NCBI GenBank assembly: GCA_019359675.1
Contig: JAHHGX010000065.1
Coordinates: forward strand, 496,001-560,000
Reading direction: 5' to 3'
Source of the DNA: Calothrix sp. FI2-JRJ7
GTDB taxonomy: Bacteria; Cyanobacteriota; Cyanobacteriia; Cyanobacteriales; Nostocaceae
Length of the DNA: 64,000 nt
This document shows positions 1 to 4,017 of the stretch, piece after piece; the stretch's first letter is position 1; each line of letters begins with the position of its first letter. Below the pieces are notes generated by a model. The model made no database searches and was not told where the DNA came from. It worked only from the letters and a program-made list of their open reading frames with translations. A program made the position numbers and the translations under genes.

Positions 1-396
1 CTCACCACATTCCCAGCAACAGCAAGCACCAACGTTAATAAAACACCATCTTCACCAACCTCAACGCTACTAGCGCAAGTAGTCGATCAAGAAGCACTCT
101 ACAAAGCAGGCAACGCATTAGAAAGAGCAGCAAACGCAATGCTCGCAACCCAAACTGCAAAAAGTACACAACAAGTGCAACTGCATTTTGACACAGCATT
201 AGCAGCAATGGAAGAATCAGCAAGTTTATTAGAAAAAGCTGGTGTTCCTGAAGGCGCCAAAGCAATGAACCGCGCGCTTGCATTAGTACAAGCTGCGGTC
301 AATGCTGAGTCTGATGCTGAAGCAGACAACTTCATCAAAGAAGCAGGTAAAGCTTTAGATGATGTAATTGCAGCAATAGAAAAAGCAGCTAGTTAG
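1..396 (+). CDS. Ala-rich helical protein, 3' part only
   Basis: The reading frame is open from base 1 to the TAG at 394-396, so the gene begins outside the window and at least 131 residues are visible. The visible part is rich in Ala, Glu, Lys and Gln with no Cys and reads as long amphipathic helices. The first 25 or so residues are Thr/Ser/Pro-rich and resemble a linker. An internal ATG at 139 exists, but the frame upstream of it has the same composition, so the real start is upstream. The stop overlaps the stop of the convergent DAHP synthase gene by a few bases. No family recognised; function unknown. Confidence 0.6.
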   Translation, partial: LTTFPATASTNVNKTPSSPTSTLLAQVVDQEALYKAGNALERAANAMLATQTAKSTQQVQLHFDTALAAMEESASLLEKAGVPEGAKAMNRALALVQAAVNAESDAEADNFIKEAGKALDDVIAAIEKAAS

Positions 397-1268
397 GCTA
401 CTAATTGAAAAGGGGTAGATGTCTGACGACCCACCCCTACGGTATTTGTTGATATTTTGCGTCCGACTGCTGCGGCAACTGGTACTAATGTGTGAACTAA
501 ATCAATCATTTCTTCTAAAGAGAGTGCTTGTTGTGCATCGGAAACTGATTTTTCTGGGACTGGATGACACTCAATTATTAATCCATCGGCGCCACATGCA
601 ATTGCGGCACGTGATAATGGTGCTATTAGTTCGCGTCTGCCAGCAGCATGTGATGGGTCTACAATAACTGGTAGATGTGTAATTTGTTTGAGTGCTGCTA
701 CGGCGCCTAAGTCTAATACGTTACGAGTATAGTTATCGAAACTGCGAATACCACGTTCGCACAGTACTACATCAGAATTACCGTGACTTAAAATATATTC
801 TGCTGCCATGACAAACTCTTCAATTGTGGCAGCTAAACCGCGTTTAAGTAGAATTGGTTTACCCGCTTGTCCAAGTTCTTTGAGTAAATCAAAGTTTTGC
901 ATGTTGCGACTGCCTACTTGCAGCATATCAGCATGAGCAGCTATAACTTCGATTTGTGAAATCGCCATTACTTCTGTAACTACAGGTAGATTATATTTGT
1001 CTCTTACTTCTGCTAGTACTTTCAACCCAGTTTCACCCATACCTTGAAATGCGTAAGGAGATGTGCGAGGTTTGTAAACTCCACCACGTAATGCTTTTAC
1101 AGGGAAATTATGGAGTTTTTCTGCTACGGTTTCCATTTGTTCGTAACTTTCTACCGCACAGGGGCCACCAATAATAATTATTTCTTCGGCGCCGAAGATT
1201 ACATTATCAGAGATTTGGACTAAAGATTGTTCTTGGTTTGATTTAGCAGCAAGTTTAGCGTTATTCAT
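393..1268 (-). CDS. aroF: 3-deoxy-7-phosphoheptulonate (DAHP) synthase
   Basis: First enzyme of the shikimate pathway: condenses phosphoenolpyruvate and erythrose 4-phosphate to DAHP in the cytoplasm. The 291 residues carry the hallmarks of the type I-beta family (AroA/KDO8P-synthase-like barrel): GPCAVES at about 35-41, KPRTSP at about 66-71, a Lys-Arg-Gly near the middle (LLKRG), DPSHAAGRRE and ECHPVPEKS near the end. The start is the ATG at 1266-1268 (MNNAKLAAKS). A longer reading from 1331 would translate a terminator hairpin and is rejected. There is no obvious extra regulatory ACT or chorismate-mutase domain, so feedback control is more likely at the RNA level: the leader upstream holds an aromatic-rich peptide gene and a terminator (see 1299-1418). 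Confidence 0.93.
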   Translation of the reverse strand: MNNAKLAAKSNQEQSLVQISDNVIFGAEEIIIIGGPCAVESYEQMETVAEKLHNFPVKALRGGVYKPRTSPYAFQGMGETGLKVLAEVRDKYNLPVVTEVMAISQIEVIAAHADMLQVGSRNMQNFDLLKELGQAGKPILLKRGLAATIEEFVMAAEYILSHGNSDVVLCERGIRSFDNYTRNVLDLGAVAALKQITHLPVIVDPSHAAGRRELIAPLSRAAIACGADGLIIECHPVPEKSVSDAQQALSLEEMIDLVHTLVPVAAAVGRKISTNTVGVGRQTSTPFQLVA

Positions 1269-1298
1269 TGCAAGATGTTGTTTATATGTGTGAAAGTC

Positions 1299-1328
1299 AA
1301 AAAAAACCCGGAGTGTTAATACTCCGGG
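1299..1328 (-). terminator. attenuator terminator in the aroF leader
   Basis: On the minus strand an 8-bp stem (CCCGGAGT/ACTCCGGG, positions 1307-1328, 6-base loop) is followed at once by eight T (1306-1299). It is a canonical intrinsic terminator, yet it lies 24 bases after the leader-peptide stop codon and about 30 bases before the aroF start, inside the transcript's leader. Its 5' arm (CCGGAG) can alternatively pair with CTCCGG at 1361-1366, which lies in the Pro-Pro-Glu codons at the end of the leader peptide. A ribosome finishing the peptide would cover that segment and favour the terminator; one stalled upstream would leave it free. Confidence 0.8.
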
Positions 1329-1352
1329 CAAAAGTTTGTCGTCATGACGCGC

Positions 1353-1418
1353 CTATTGCTCCGGAGGATATCCGAACCAAAAATAAAATCCGTAAAACCA
1401 GCTTGTAAGGTATGTCAT
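1353..1418 (-). CDS. aromatic-rich leader peptide of aroF (21 aa)
   Basis: A 21-codon frame (ATG at 1416-1418, TAG at 1353-1355) with 10 aromatic residues: Tyr3, Trp7, Phe8, Tyr9, Phe11, Tyr12, Phe13, Trp14, Phe15 and Tyr17; the core reads SWFYGFYFWFGY, followed by PPEQ. This composition, the position just upstream of DAHP synthase and the terminator 24 bases after the stop match leader peptides of amino-acid operons controlled by attenuation (trpL/pheL type). The start ATG sits within GTCATGAC, which can pair with a second copy near 1341-1348, so start access may depend on folding. No clear Shine-Dalgarno sequence is visible. The same frame is open further upstream (an ATG at 1500-1502), giving an alternative 50-residue reading through the first hairpin. 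Expression is inferred. Confidence 0.72.
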   Translation of the reverse strand: MTYLTSWFYGFYFWFGYPPEQ

Positions 1419-1440
1419 GACGAACAAATTAATAGAAGTA

Positions 1441-1524
1441 CAAAAAAACAAAAACCGCAGAACATGTAGTCTGCGGTTCACTGGGTGATTTCCATGTGGA
1501 AACATAATTCACTCCCAGTGAACC
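1441..1524 (-). promoter_or_regulatory. upstream hairpin plus terminator-like hairpin, aroF leader
   Basis: Two adjacent hairpins on the minus strand. The first pairs GGTTCACTGGG with CCCAGTGAACC (outer ends 1524 and 1475, 11 bp). The second pairs AACCGCAGA with TCTGCGGTT (1453-1478, 9 bp), followed by a T-rich run (TTTTTGTTTTTTT) down to 1442. They share about four bases (AACC), so they may compete. This may be a first attenuation step ahead of the leader peptide, or the 3' end of a separate small RNA. The rest of the divergent gap up to 1832 is AT-rich and contains no further recognisable element. Confidence 0.5.
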
Positions 1525-1832
1525 ACCCGACGCCAAAAATAAAAATAGCTAATTGTATGTATCATTGATTAGATTGCTGGAAAAACTTATAATAATCCTA
1601 TCCTTTACAATTTAACAGGGTATAACAGCAAAGTCAATATATGAGCATCATTAAAAAAAATAGTGTTTATTCTGTAAAGTACGGCTTACTGAAGTAAAGC
1701 TTTATAGATAATAGGTAGTAGTCAATCGGCAACCACCAGGGTAAGCATGATATGAAAGAGCATCGATTGAGTGGAAAGCGCGGCGCCTATTAACCATCTA
1801 TTGCACAACGTTATCGACGCATCGACTTATAT

Positions 1833-2321
1833 ATGAAGCCCAGTTCCAAACTTTTATCAACATCATTTAACTATCACGGTGCTTATCCCTGTCCGGTTTG
1901 TCGTGTGGGTAAAATTACTCATATGCCCATGATGGAGGCAATGTCTTGTGATTTTTGTCAACAAATCTTCACTGTCAATATAGAACAACAGCAACTAAAA
2001 ATGCCTTCGCGACAACCTCCTTTAGTTTGGCGTTGGAATGGTTTTAATTGGACAGAAGCTCAACTAGAAGGAGTTGAATTTGGCTGGGGTTACGTTTTTG
2101 CAGCACTTGCCTTTATATTTTTACCAACAGGACTAATAGGTATCGTTGCTTACAATTTCCCCCCATCGCCAGAGGCTCCGTTAAGCTGGGTACCTTATAT
2201 TTGGACTGCGTTGACTTTTATATCGCACTTTACAATCATTTTATGGTTGTTCATTGAGATATATCAAGTACCGATTCGAGCTTATTTGCGAGCGATACGC
2301 GAGCGTTTGCTGACTCGGTAG
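1833..2321 (+). CDS. zinc-ribbon membrane protein, conserved hypothetical
   Basis: 162 residues. The N-terminal third has two CxxC pairs (CPVC near residue 20, CDFC near residue 40) that would form a zinc ribbon. Two hydrophobic segments follow at about 90-115 (YVFAALAFIFLPTGLIGIVAY) and 125-150, ending in a basic tail (RAIRERLLTR). This layout suggests an inner-membrane or thylakoid-anchored protein with a cytoplasmic metal-binding head. It stands alone, between the divergent aroF leader and the J-domain gene. Function unknown. Confidence 0.75.
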   Translation: MKPSSKLLSTSFNYHGAYPCPVCRVGKITHMPMMEAMSCDFCQQIFTVNIEQQQLKMPSRQPPLVWRWNGFNWTEAQLEGVEFGWGYVFAALAFIFLPTGLIGIVAYNFPPSPEAPLSWVPYIWTALTFISHFTIILWLFIEIYQVPIRAYLRAIRERLLTR

Positions 2322-2528
2322 ATAAAAATTGAGGATTCTGAGTCCGGGAATAGGGGATTACAAAATGTATATTCTCTAGTCCCGATTCATAATTCTAGGT
2401 AATCACAAAAATTAAAAAACACTGTATTTGTGATGTCCTGAACGAATTGGTCAAAAGATTTACTCCTGAAAAGAGCAGATAAGGGGCTAAATCGCTCATA
2501 ATTAAAATGGTAAAAATAAAAGTGCCTT

Positions 2529-3452
2529 ATGAGAGAGCTGGAGCGATACTACCGAATTTTAGAATTGGAGCCAGGAGCTACTCTTGATGAAGTTAACCAG
2601 GCTTACAAGGATTTGGCTTTTGTATGGCATCCAGACCGCATCCCGTTGGATAATCAACGTTTAAGAGAAAAAGCTGAGAGAAAGCTTCAAGACATTAACG
2701 AAGCGCGCGAGAAGTTACGCTCGTACAAATCGCGCTTTAACGTTAATCGCACATCCTCGCAAACAACGTACAGGCAATCATCCAGACCTGTGTCACAACC
2801 GCCACCAAAGTCAACTAGATATACCTCTCAATCAACCTCACAATCAAGAACATACGAGCCAGCACCAGAGCCTAAACCGCAGCCAGCACCGGAACCTAAA
2901 CCACACGAGCCAGCACCGGAACATGAAGCAGAATCGGCAAAAGAACCCAAATCAGAAGCGGCGCCAAAATCTCCATCTTCAAGCCAAACAACTTACAGAC
3001 CTGCCTCTTCAACCACACCAAAATCTACACCTCAGCCAAGTTACCAAGAACAAACATATCAATCCAATTATCAACCGCCTAAGCAACATCCCGATTTAAG
3101 CGGCAAAGACTACAGTAATGCCAACTTAAGTAACCGTGATTTCTCCGGTAGAAACTTGAGTTACGCAAATCTTAGCGGTGCCAATCTTAGCGACACATTT
3201 ATGCACAAAGTAAATTTACGTGGTGCAAATCTGTCTGAAGCTAATTTATTTCGGGCAAATTTACTGCTAGCCGATTTACGAGAAGCCAATTTACAGTCAG
3301 CCAACCTAATAGGCGCCGATTTAAGCGGTGCTGATTTACGTGGCGCCGACTTCCGTAATGCCAGAGTCATGATAGGCGATAGAGTTCAAGTCAAACTCAT
3401 CGGCGCCATGTTAAGCGGCGCCATCATGCCCGACGGTTCCGTACATGATTAA
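2529..3452 (+). CDS. J-domain protein with C-terminal pentapeptide repeats
   Basis: 307 residues in three parts. Residues 1-65 form a DnaJ-type J domain with the HPD tripeptide (VWHPDRIP, about 34-41), which stimulates Hsp70 ATPase. Residues 70-185 are a low-complexity Pro/Gln/Ser/Glu linker with PAPEPKP-type repeats. Residues 190-300 are a pentapeptide-repeat solenoid (ANLSGANLS, ADLSGADLRGADF) expected to fold as a right-handed quadrilateral beta-helix. There is no G/F region, zinc finger or CTD, so it is not a classical DnaJ. It probably recruits DnaK to a partner bound by the solenoid or linker; the partner is unknown. The GGCGCC palindrome recurs in the repeat-coding part. Confidence 0.85.
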   Translation: MRELERYYRILELEPGATLDEVNQAYKDLAFVWHPDRIPLDNQRLREKAERKLQDINEAREKLRSYKSRFNVNRTSSQTTYRQSSRPVSQPPPKSTRYTSQSTSQSRTYEPAPEPKPQPAPEPKPHEPAPEHEAESAKEPKSEAAPKSPSSSQTTYRPASSTTPKSTPQPSYQEQTYQSNYQPPKQHPDLSGKDYSNANLSNRDFSGRNLSYANLSGANLSDTFMHKVNLRGANLSEANLFRANLLLADLREANLQSANLIGADLSGADLRGADFRNARVMIGDRVQVKLIGAMLSGAIMPDGSVHD

Positions 3453-3531
3453 GTTAGGAGGCGCGGAGTTAGGAAGTAATGACTGTGATGTGAGAAACTT
3501 AACAATGGTTTACAATTACACCATTAGTTAA

Positions 3532-4017
3532 ATGAGTACCACAATCACAGACATAGCAGTCAAAACAATCGACGGGCAAGAAAAAAACCTCAGTGAATAT
3601 ACAGGAAAAGTACTACTAATAGTAAACGTCGCATCTTACTGCGGTTACACAGGGCAATATAGCGGACTAGAGAAATTAAACCAAAAGTACCGCGATGGCG
3701 GATTACGTATACTTGGATTCCCTAGTAACGATTTCGGCGCCCAAGAACCAGGTACAAACCAAGAAATTGCAACATTTTGCGACAGAAACTATGGTGTAAC
3801 TTTTGACTTGTTCGATAAAGTTCACGCAAAAGGGTCTGATAAACACCCACTTTACGAGCGACTAACAAGCGCAGTGGAACCAAAAGGTGACGTATCTTGG
3901 AACTTTGAGAAATTTGTAGTCGGCAAAAATGGTGAAGTAGTTGCACGCTTTAAAAGCGGTACCACACCCGAAGCACCAGAATTAATCGAAACAATTGAGC
4001 GAGAGTTAGCAAAGTAG
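3532..4017 (+). CDS. glutathione peroxidase-family thiol peroxidase
   Basis: 161 residues, the full length of the bacterial GPX family. Reduces hydroperoxides, in cyanobacteria mostly with thioredoxin or NADPH-linked donors rather than glutathione. The peroxidatic Cys is Cys37 (VASYCGYT), the Gln lies in FPSNDFGAQEPG (about 61-72), and the Trp and Asn in VSWNFEKF (about 120-127). A second Cys in ATFCDRNYG is the probable resolving Cys. No signal peptide, so cytoplasmic. It is followed directly by two hairpin repeats (4018-4167). Confidence 0.9.
   Translation: MSTTITDIAVKTIDGQEKNLSEYTGKVLLIVNVASYCGYTGQYSGLEKLNQKYRDGGLRILGFPSNDFGAQEPGTNQEIATFCDRNYGVTFDLFDKVHAKGSDKHPLYERLTSAVEPKGDVSWNFEKFVVGKNGEVVARFKSGTTPEAPELIETIERELAK

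Follow-up and report, generated by a model that had tools for sequence, protein, structure and literature searches.

DAHP synthase forms the entry to the shikimate pathway and carries out the first step toward phenylalanine, tyrosine and tryptophan. The enterobacterial trp, phe and his attenuators operate through leader codons, the masking of region 2 at the stop codon, a 2:3 antiterminator and a 3:4 terminator. At aroF of Corynebacterium glutamicum, a leader peptide was reportedly first described by Neshat et al. in 2014. Passages of PMC11802643 and PMC4046766 describe a single leader peptide (aroR) with Phe-Tyr-Phe for this gene, and the trpL and pheL leaders are named in the former. Tandem attenuators that respond to different signals (ATP and proline) in an additive manner are described, in part of PMC3641672, for the Salmonella mgtCBR leader, and the uORFC-13-1 motif upstream of aroF, with 24 examples from Acholeplasma and environmental sequences and a proposed reading frame, is presented in a passage of PMC8632094. 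With regard to cyanobacteria, a 2016 paper (PMC4833913) refers, in the passage concerned, to a lack of reliable data on attenuation. An excerpt of PMC1262725 treats Actinobacteria, and a word search of the main text of PMC2965389 returned no cyanobacteria, Nostoc or Synechoc-. Our literature search, which covered few subscription journals, yielded neither a cyanobacterial leader-peptide attenuator nor a tandem aromatic pair.

Two leader modules upstream of aroF

The window, that is, the whole 64,000-nucleotide stretch of Calothrix sp. FI2-JRJ7 DNA analysed here, carries aroF, the regulated gene, on the minus strand (393..1268, ATG at 1268), and its product was identified as DAHP synthase by both TIGR01361 and PRK08673, each above cut-off. 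On the same strand lies the leader peptide that had been reported in the first-pass annotation, here designated leader peptide 2, MTYLTSWFYGFYFWFGYPPEQ (1353..1418, minus strand), with its frame running from ATG at 1418 to the TAG stop at 1353. The frame of 21 codons with 10 Phe/Tyr/Trp residues claimed there was confirmed, as were the terminator with eight T ahead of aroF and its distance from the aroF start. This terminator 2 (1299..1329, minus strand) is composed of a hairpin at 1329-1306 (regions 3 and 4), with 9 paired bases and a 6-base loop, and of eight T at 1306-1299, the first of which doubles as the last paired base of the hairpin. The proposed alternative pairing was also found to hold at the level of complementarity: CTCCGG at 1366-1361, in the final codons of leader 2, has its complement, CCGGAG, in the 5' arm of terminator 2, and forms the putative 5' arm (region 2) of antiterminator 2 (1361..1366, minus strand). 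In the window, a last Tyr codon of leader 2 lies very near region 2, and a ribosome held there would cover region 2. An additional predicted helix, S1, joins an upstream arm over the leader 2 start (1414..1425, minus strand) to a downstream arm between the leader 2 stop and terminator 2 (1338..1350, minus strand; pairing partner read as 1350-1338).

The window contained three frames in which at least 8 of 14 residues near the end were F/Y/W, compared with seven in total in 20 first-order Markov sequences of equal length; the leader 2 peptide alone is thus only moderately unusual with respect to chance. Chance is excluded because the module is conserved, as described below, and not because of the peptide alone. 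By eye, neither leader start in the window had a Shine-Dalgarno site nearby.

A second module, absent from the first-pass annotation, was detected upstream of the reported one. Leader peptide 1, MIHTISYFYFWRRVVHWE (1509..1565, minus strand, stop TGA), contains an aromatic codon core encoding Tyr-Phe-Tyr-Phe-Trp (1533..1547, minus strand). The 5' arm of antiterminator 1 (region 2; 1514..1524, minus strand), for which covariation was observed, is located inside the final leader 1 codons, and pairs with a 3' arm (region 3; 1475..1485, minus strand) to give, in the window, a perfect 11-bp helix of 1524-1514 with 1485-1475. The last five bases of this 3' arm double as the first bases of the 5' arm of terminator 1 (1442..1479, minus strand), which consists of a hairpin at 1479-1452 and a T tract extending to 1442. 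This overlap would make antiterminator 1 and terminator 1 mutually exclusive. The covariance model of module 1 (R1) matched the leader 1 locus with an E value of 1.3e-18, and that of module 2 (R2) matched the reported locus with an E value of 2.8e-10. The earlier proposal of an attenuator at aroF therefore needs to be extended: its aromatic leader, its antiterminator opposed to a terminator and its target, aroF, are well supported by comparison of genomes, and it had noticed only one of the two modules. Since the unit is a tandem pair, an open module 2 attenuator alone would be insufficient for aroF expression.

Conservation of the modules in orthologous upstream regions

Orthologous aroF upstream regions were taken from genomes of the order, in which at least 135 places with a close aroF orthologue were present (6 of those 135 were left out of the sample), and from 80 loci of named genomes, including Calothrix PCC 7103 and 7716, Dulcicalothrix, Nostoc, Brasilonema, Fischerella and Chlorogloeopsis; AroF identity reached 95-96% in the closest named relatives. 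The 210 upstream pieces were reduced to 195 that were distinct over the last 300 bases, and to 192 after the removal of three shorter than 280 nt at contig ends. A set of 97 diverse regions was chosen, of which 63 entered alignments A1 and A2 and 32 entered alignment A3. The covariance models of module 1 and module 2 were built from 63 and 32 regions, respectively, which match by construction.

Using a strict text rule, which itself requires aromatic residues, both leaders were identified in 170 of the 192 distinct regions. With the covariance models, module 1 was identified in 183 regions (100/100 and 83/92 in the two sets), and module 2 in 190 (100/100 and 90/92); 182 regions had both modules, and 191 had one or more. 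The 10 regions without one or both modules include eight with module 2 and without module 1, one (L193, of genome G028) in which aroF is preceded by module 1 alone, with no module 2 by the model, and L177, the sole region with neither, where the aroF match has no usable start. Among the 170 regions recovered by the strict rule, leader 1 was 17-21 residues long (one of 14) with 5-9 aromatic residues, and leader 2 was 17-27 residues long with 7-10. The stop codon of leader 1 was TGA in 166 of these 170; the start of leader 2 was uncertain in some relatives, GTG being assigned in 17 of the 170. The orthologous regions kept both the hairpin and the aromatic codons, and the outcome that the first-pass annotation had named as contrary to its proposal, an absence of the frame or of the hairpin, was not what we obtained.

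The module 2 model also gave weak matches (E 0.001-0.01) at the module 1 site in 18 of the 192 regions, which may hint at an old duplication, or at shared composition. At least two leaders 1 (L169 and L195, of genomes G033 and G153) carry an early stop just before region 2; in these natural variants, the masking of region 2 by a ribosome that finishes the leader might differ.

A promoter-like site, TTGACT-N17-TAAATT, was located 5' of leader 1 (1609..1637, minus strand), and a site about as far from leader 1 is conserved in relatives. A rule of a TTGACA-like and a TAnnnT-like element 16-18 nt apart, applied 25-140 nt upstream of leader 1, identified such a site in 148 of the 151 testable regions, where mononucleotide shuffles gave an expectation of 12.8; the median from the end of the -10 box to the leader 1 ATG was 47.5 nt. 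The same rule applied within 115 nt upstream of leader 2 gave a site in one of the 151 regions. A general promoter scan of positions 1-4000 showed no excess, with 9 sites found and 9.0 expected. The position of the conserved site before leader 1, and not between the modules, implies that both modules should share one transcript, and we infer a transcription start upstream of leader 1. A transcript starting between the terminator and aroF, the second outcome that had been named as contrary to attenuation, is not what the sequence suggests, given the conserved promoter-like site 5' of both modules.

The eight regions with module 2 and without module 1, together with L201, in which module 1 is degraded, could be taken to indicate that only module 2 regulates aroF, with module 1 marking where an unrelated small RNA or gene further upstream happens to end. 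However, module 1 occurs almost as often as module 2, possesses an aromatic leader and an antiterminator of its own, and stands at a steady spacing from module 2 (median 85 nt, range 74-175, from stop 1 to start 2 in the 170 regions). The promoter-like site is likewise 5' of module 1 rather than between the modules, and L193 has module 1 without module 2. We consider regulation by module 2 only to be very improbable, and favour regulation of aroF by both modules.

Coding pattern and RNA helices

To describe the coding pattern, 94 leader-1 and 78 leader-2 cores were chosen from the 97 diverse regions by their aromatic-residue pattern. The aromatic positions encoded Phe, Tyr or Trp in 464 of 470 codons of leader 1 and in 544 of 546 codons of leader 2, with synonymous alternation between TAC and TAT (Tyr), TTT and TTC, and GGC, GGT and GGA (Gly). 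In leader 2, pairwise differences were more numerous at the third codon position (6517) than at the first (1504) or second (3238), and 4109 were non-synonymous vs 4864 synonymous. In the leader 1 core, the second position was as variable as the third (6234 and 5819 pairwise differences), with 6590 non-synonymous vs 3313 synonymous; this non-synonymous excess arises because Tyr-Phe swaps alter the second position and because one free flanking codon is included. The codon-class evidence supports a coding function of the frames and is not proof of one, as selection by pattern favours this result.

Conserved open frames would also be expected if the leaders encoded two functional small peptides or mainly served ribosome reinitiation at aroF, and reinitiation at leader genes is proposed for bacteria in a passage of PMC4833913. 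However, the peptides vary except in the aromatic core and at the ends that form helices, the leader 2 stop is a median of 102 nt away from aroF with the terminator between, and the same paper, in the part concerned, reports no short-distance peak in cyanobacteria. A role of this kind is the least probable of the explanations that we weighed.

Covariation of the predicted helices was tested in the 63 regions against shuffles (500 for antiterminator 1) and slid controls. For antiterminator 1, 92.6% of cells were paired, with double changes in 9 of 11 pairs (42 cells); none of the 500 shuffles was as good, and the slid controls reached at most 52% pairing. Terminator 1 showed 99.3% pairing with double changes in two pairs, antiterminator 2 showed 98.2% with double changes in only two pairs, and terminator 2 showed 92.8% with double changes in 4 of 9 pairs (28 cells). 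Antiterminator 1 and terminator 2 both exceeded the shuffles and the slid controls. By covariation, the predicted antiterminator helix is well supported in module 1 and weakly supported in module 2. RNAalifold on alignments A1 and A2 recovered the two terminators, along with a small local hairpin within the end of each leader, and neither of the long antiterminators; the latter were examined as explicitly specified helices. For helix S1, the duplex of each region with its own partner averaged -14.5 kcal/mol, compared with -10.9 for the partners of other regions and -8.8 for shuffled partners, and was stronger than the mismatched mean in 76 of 97 regions. A comparable helix from the leader 1 start to the stretch past its stop received no support, the own duplex being stronger in 47 of 97 regions.

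Folding was then computed for the 97 regions with the ribosome footprint blocked out. In module 1, the antiterminator was favoured in 75 of 97 regions with no ribosome, in 85 with a stalled ribosome and in one with the ribosome at the stop codon, where the terminator was favoured in the other 96. In module 2, the antiterminator was ahead at full-length equilibrium in 7 of 97 regions with no ribosome, in 22 with a stalled ribosome and in none with the ribosome at the stop codon. With the transcript ending after region 3, the antiterminator of module 2 was formed in 53 of 96 regions with no ribosome, in 72 with a stalled ribosome and in none with the ribosome at the stop codon, which masked region 2 in all 96 shortened transcripts. 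Since the terminator of module 2 mostly prevails at full length even when the ribosome is stalled, the shortened transcript, which corresponds to the state reached while the RNA is being synthesised, is the only form that supports its antiterminator. In these models, attenuation appears clear for module 1, and for module 2 would be kinetic and is less sure.

Mutually exclusive and conserved helices are equally expected of a metabolite riboswitch or a target of an RNA-binding protein, with the frames being incidental. In such a case, one would not anticipate aromatic-to-aromatic and synonymous codon changes that keep the frames open, nor stop codons placed at the 3' edge of region 2. No Rfam family reached its gathering score in the 64-kb window, and a permissive Rfam scan of 1201-1860 gave ten matches, the best with an E value of 0.047, all far below gathering score. 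These observations render a riboswitch or protein switch highly improbable, even more so than regulation by module 2 only. A search for Rho (TIGR00767) in the Calothrix genome gave no match at E <=0.001, while the control search matched 12 of 14 genomes, above cut-off in eight; intrinsic terminators fit with this result.

Distribution across genomes

The module 1 model matched 143 of 388 genomes of the class, with one match each, spread over 16 families; the genomes outside the order numbered 124. All of the 29 loci of the best module 1 matches were upstream of an AroF relative, 28 of them with both leaders; 18 of these best loci were outside the order, and 17 of the 18 had both leaders. In the 20 listed genomes without module 1 (225 further such genomes were counted), the AroF matches were only about as strong as that of the distant synthase. 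A draw of 292 genomes from the phylum, for which the share of other classes is not given, produced 29 matches, none outside the class. Strong module 2 matches (E <=0.001) in 148 genomes of the order were directly upstream of aroF on the same strand in 46 of 46 cases, and weak matches at aroF were obtained in G088 and G071 (E 0.016 and 0.018, respectively). Twelve extra module 2 matches away from aroF in the 148 genomes had E values of 0.01-0.2; the six inspected were ordinary terminators or chance, with no aromatic-rich frame.

Within the Calothrix genome, the module 1 model gave a single match, with no second even at E up to 10, and the module 2 model gave one strong match and seven at E >=1.5. 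Four further YFYFW-coding patterns in this genome were set aside, as their frames were unlike leader 1 and no hairpin with T tract was present within 200 nt; the hairpin and T-tract rule does recover terminator 1. Two further DAHP synthases are encoded in this genome (contigs C25 and C76), 50-51% identical to AroF. For one of them, the 450 nt examined contained no frame in which 5 of 12 residues were aromatic; the other had three frames with 5-6 aromatic residues of 12, at 154-402 nt.

One genome (G094, contig C48) has no intact aroF; most of module 1 is fused there to a short broken aroF remnant as a shortened unit. Beside this decayed aroF, a relative of a protein encoded in the window was observed by eye; the window protein, of 162 residues and without an NCBIfam match, is encoded at 1833-2321 on the plus strand, divergent from aroF. 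Further along the plus strand, 2529-3452 encodes a product with an N-terminal J-domain-like part and C-terminal pentapeptide repeats, both below curated cut-offs.

Proposed mechanism and comparison with known attenuators

The region upstream of aroF displays the features of a leader-peptide attenuator, namely, a short frame rich in residues of the pathway products, an intrinsic terminator between leader and gene, and an exclusive antiterminator whose 5' arm a ribosome at the stop would mask. We propose that two ribosome-mediated transcription attenuators in series very probably control aroF. In module 1, a ribosome that completes leader 1 and is positioned at the TGA would cover the 5' arm of antiterminator 1, allowing terminator 1 to form and to halt transcription. 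If the ribosome were instead held on the Tyr, Phe and Trp codons, this arm would stay free, antiterminator 1 would form and the polymerase would pass. Module 2 would follow the same scheme with leader 2, the last codons beside the stop being the 5' arm of antiterminator 2, and helix S1 would favour termination when leader 2 is untranslated. The aroF gene would be transcribed only if both terminators were passed, that is, if charged Phe-, Tyr- or Trp-tRNA were so scarce that ribosomes were held on both leaders. Leader translation, stalling, termination and the response to starvation are all inferred here from sequence comparison.

Whether this arrangement represents an ancient, class-wide cyanobacterial switch of aromatic biosynthesis appears evenly balanced. 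Such a switch would be a two-stage series gate that demands two independent stalls, and the opposite defaults of the untranslated modules (module 1 open, module 2 closed) would sharpen the response and guard against transcription without translation. If the class-wide two-stage gate were true, ribosomes would closely follow RNA polymerase at cyanobacterial aroF. A working attenuator needs a ribosome close behind the polymerase, so that at this locus the coupling of transcription and translation in cyanobacteria can be tested directly. A passage of PMC7858274 mentions that RNA localisation in cyanobacteria can be independent of translation, which bears on the question of coupling. Control of DAHP synthase is also relevant to the engineering of cyanobacteria for aromatic products.

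Compared with aroR of C. glutamicum, as described in the passages cited above (PMC11802643, PMC4046766), the cyanobacterial locus is likewise a putative leader-peptide attenuator at a DAHP synthase gene in which aromatic codons would be sensed, and differs in having two leaders in place of one, with 5-10 aromatic residues each, including Trp, in place of Phe-Tyr-Phe, and in belonging to another phylum. The uORFC-13-1 motif resembles it in placing a frame with Phe codon(s) and a terminator 5' of aroF, whereas that motif, in the part of PMC8632094 concerned, is one unit with at least one Phe codon and is described with no aromatic-rich peptide. The four-region logic is shared with the enterobacterial trp, phe and his attenuators; in contrast to these, region 2 lies here within the final leader codons, two units stand in series, and a helix from the start to beyond the stop of the leader is predicted in module 2 and not in module 1.

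The tandem arrangement has its nearest counterpart in mgtCBR, where two short frames in one leader mRNA each belong to their own attenuator, according to the portion of PMC3641672 cited. Two frames, each with a terminator and an antiterminator, are similarly predicted at aroF, with both modules in 182 of 192 regions. The two systems differ in their signals: both aroF frames are rich in Phe, Tyr and Trp and by sequence would sense the same signals rather than different ones, and this same set of aromatic codons stands before a biosynthetic gene in many families of the class. Leader-peptide attenuation is itself known; as far as our search extended, what appears to be new in this putative, conserved tandem aromatic attenuator of aroF is its phylum and its tandem aromatic form. 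It would extend leader-peptide attenuation to a phylum for which the 2016 paper, in the passage cited (PMC4833913), had no reliable data, and would add like signals to a tandem form that we otherwise found described, in part of PMC3641672, only for unlike ones.
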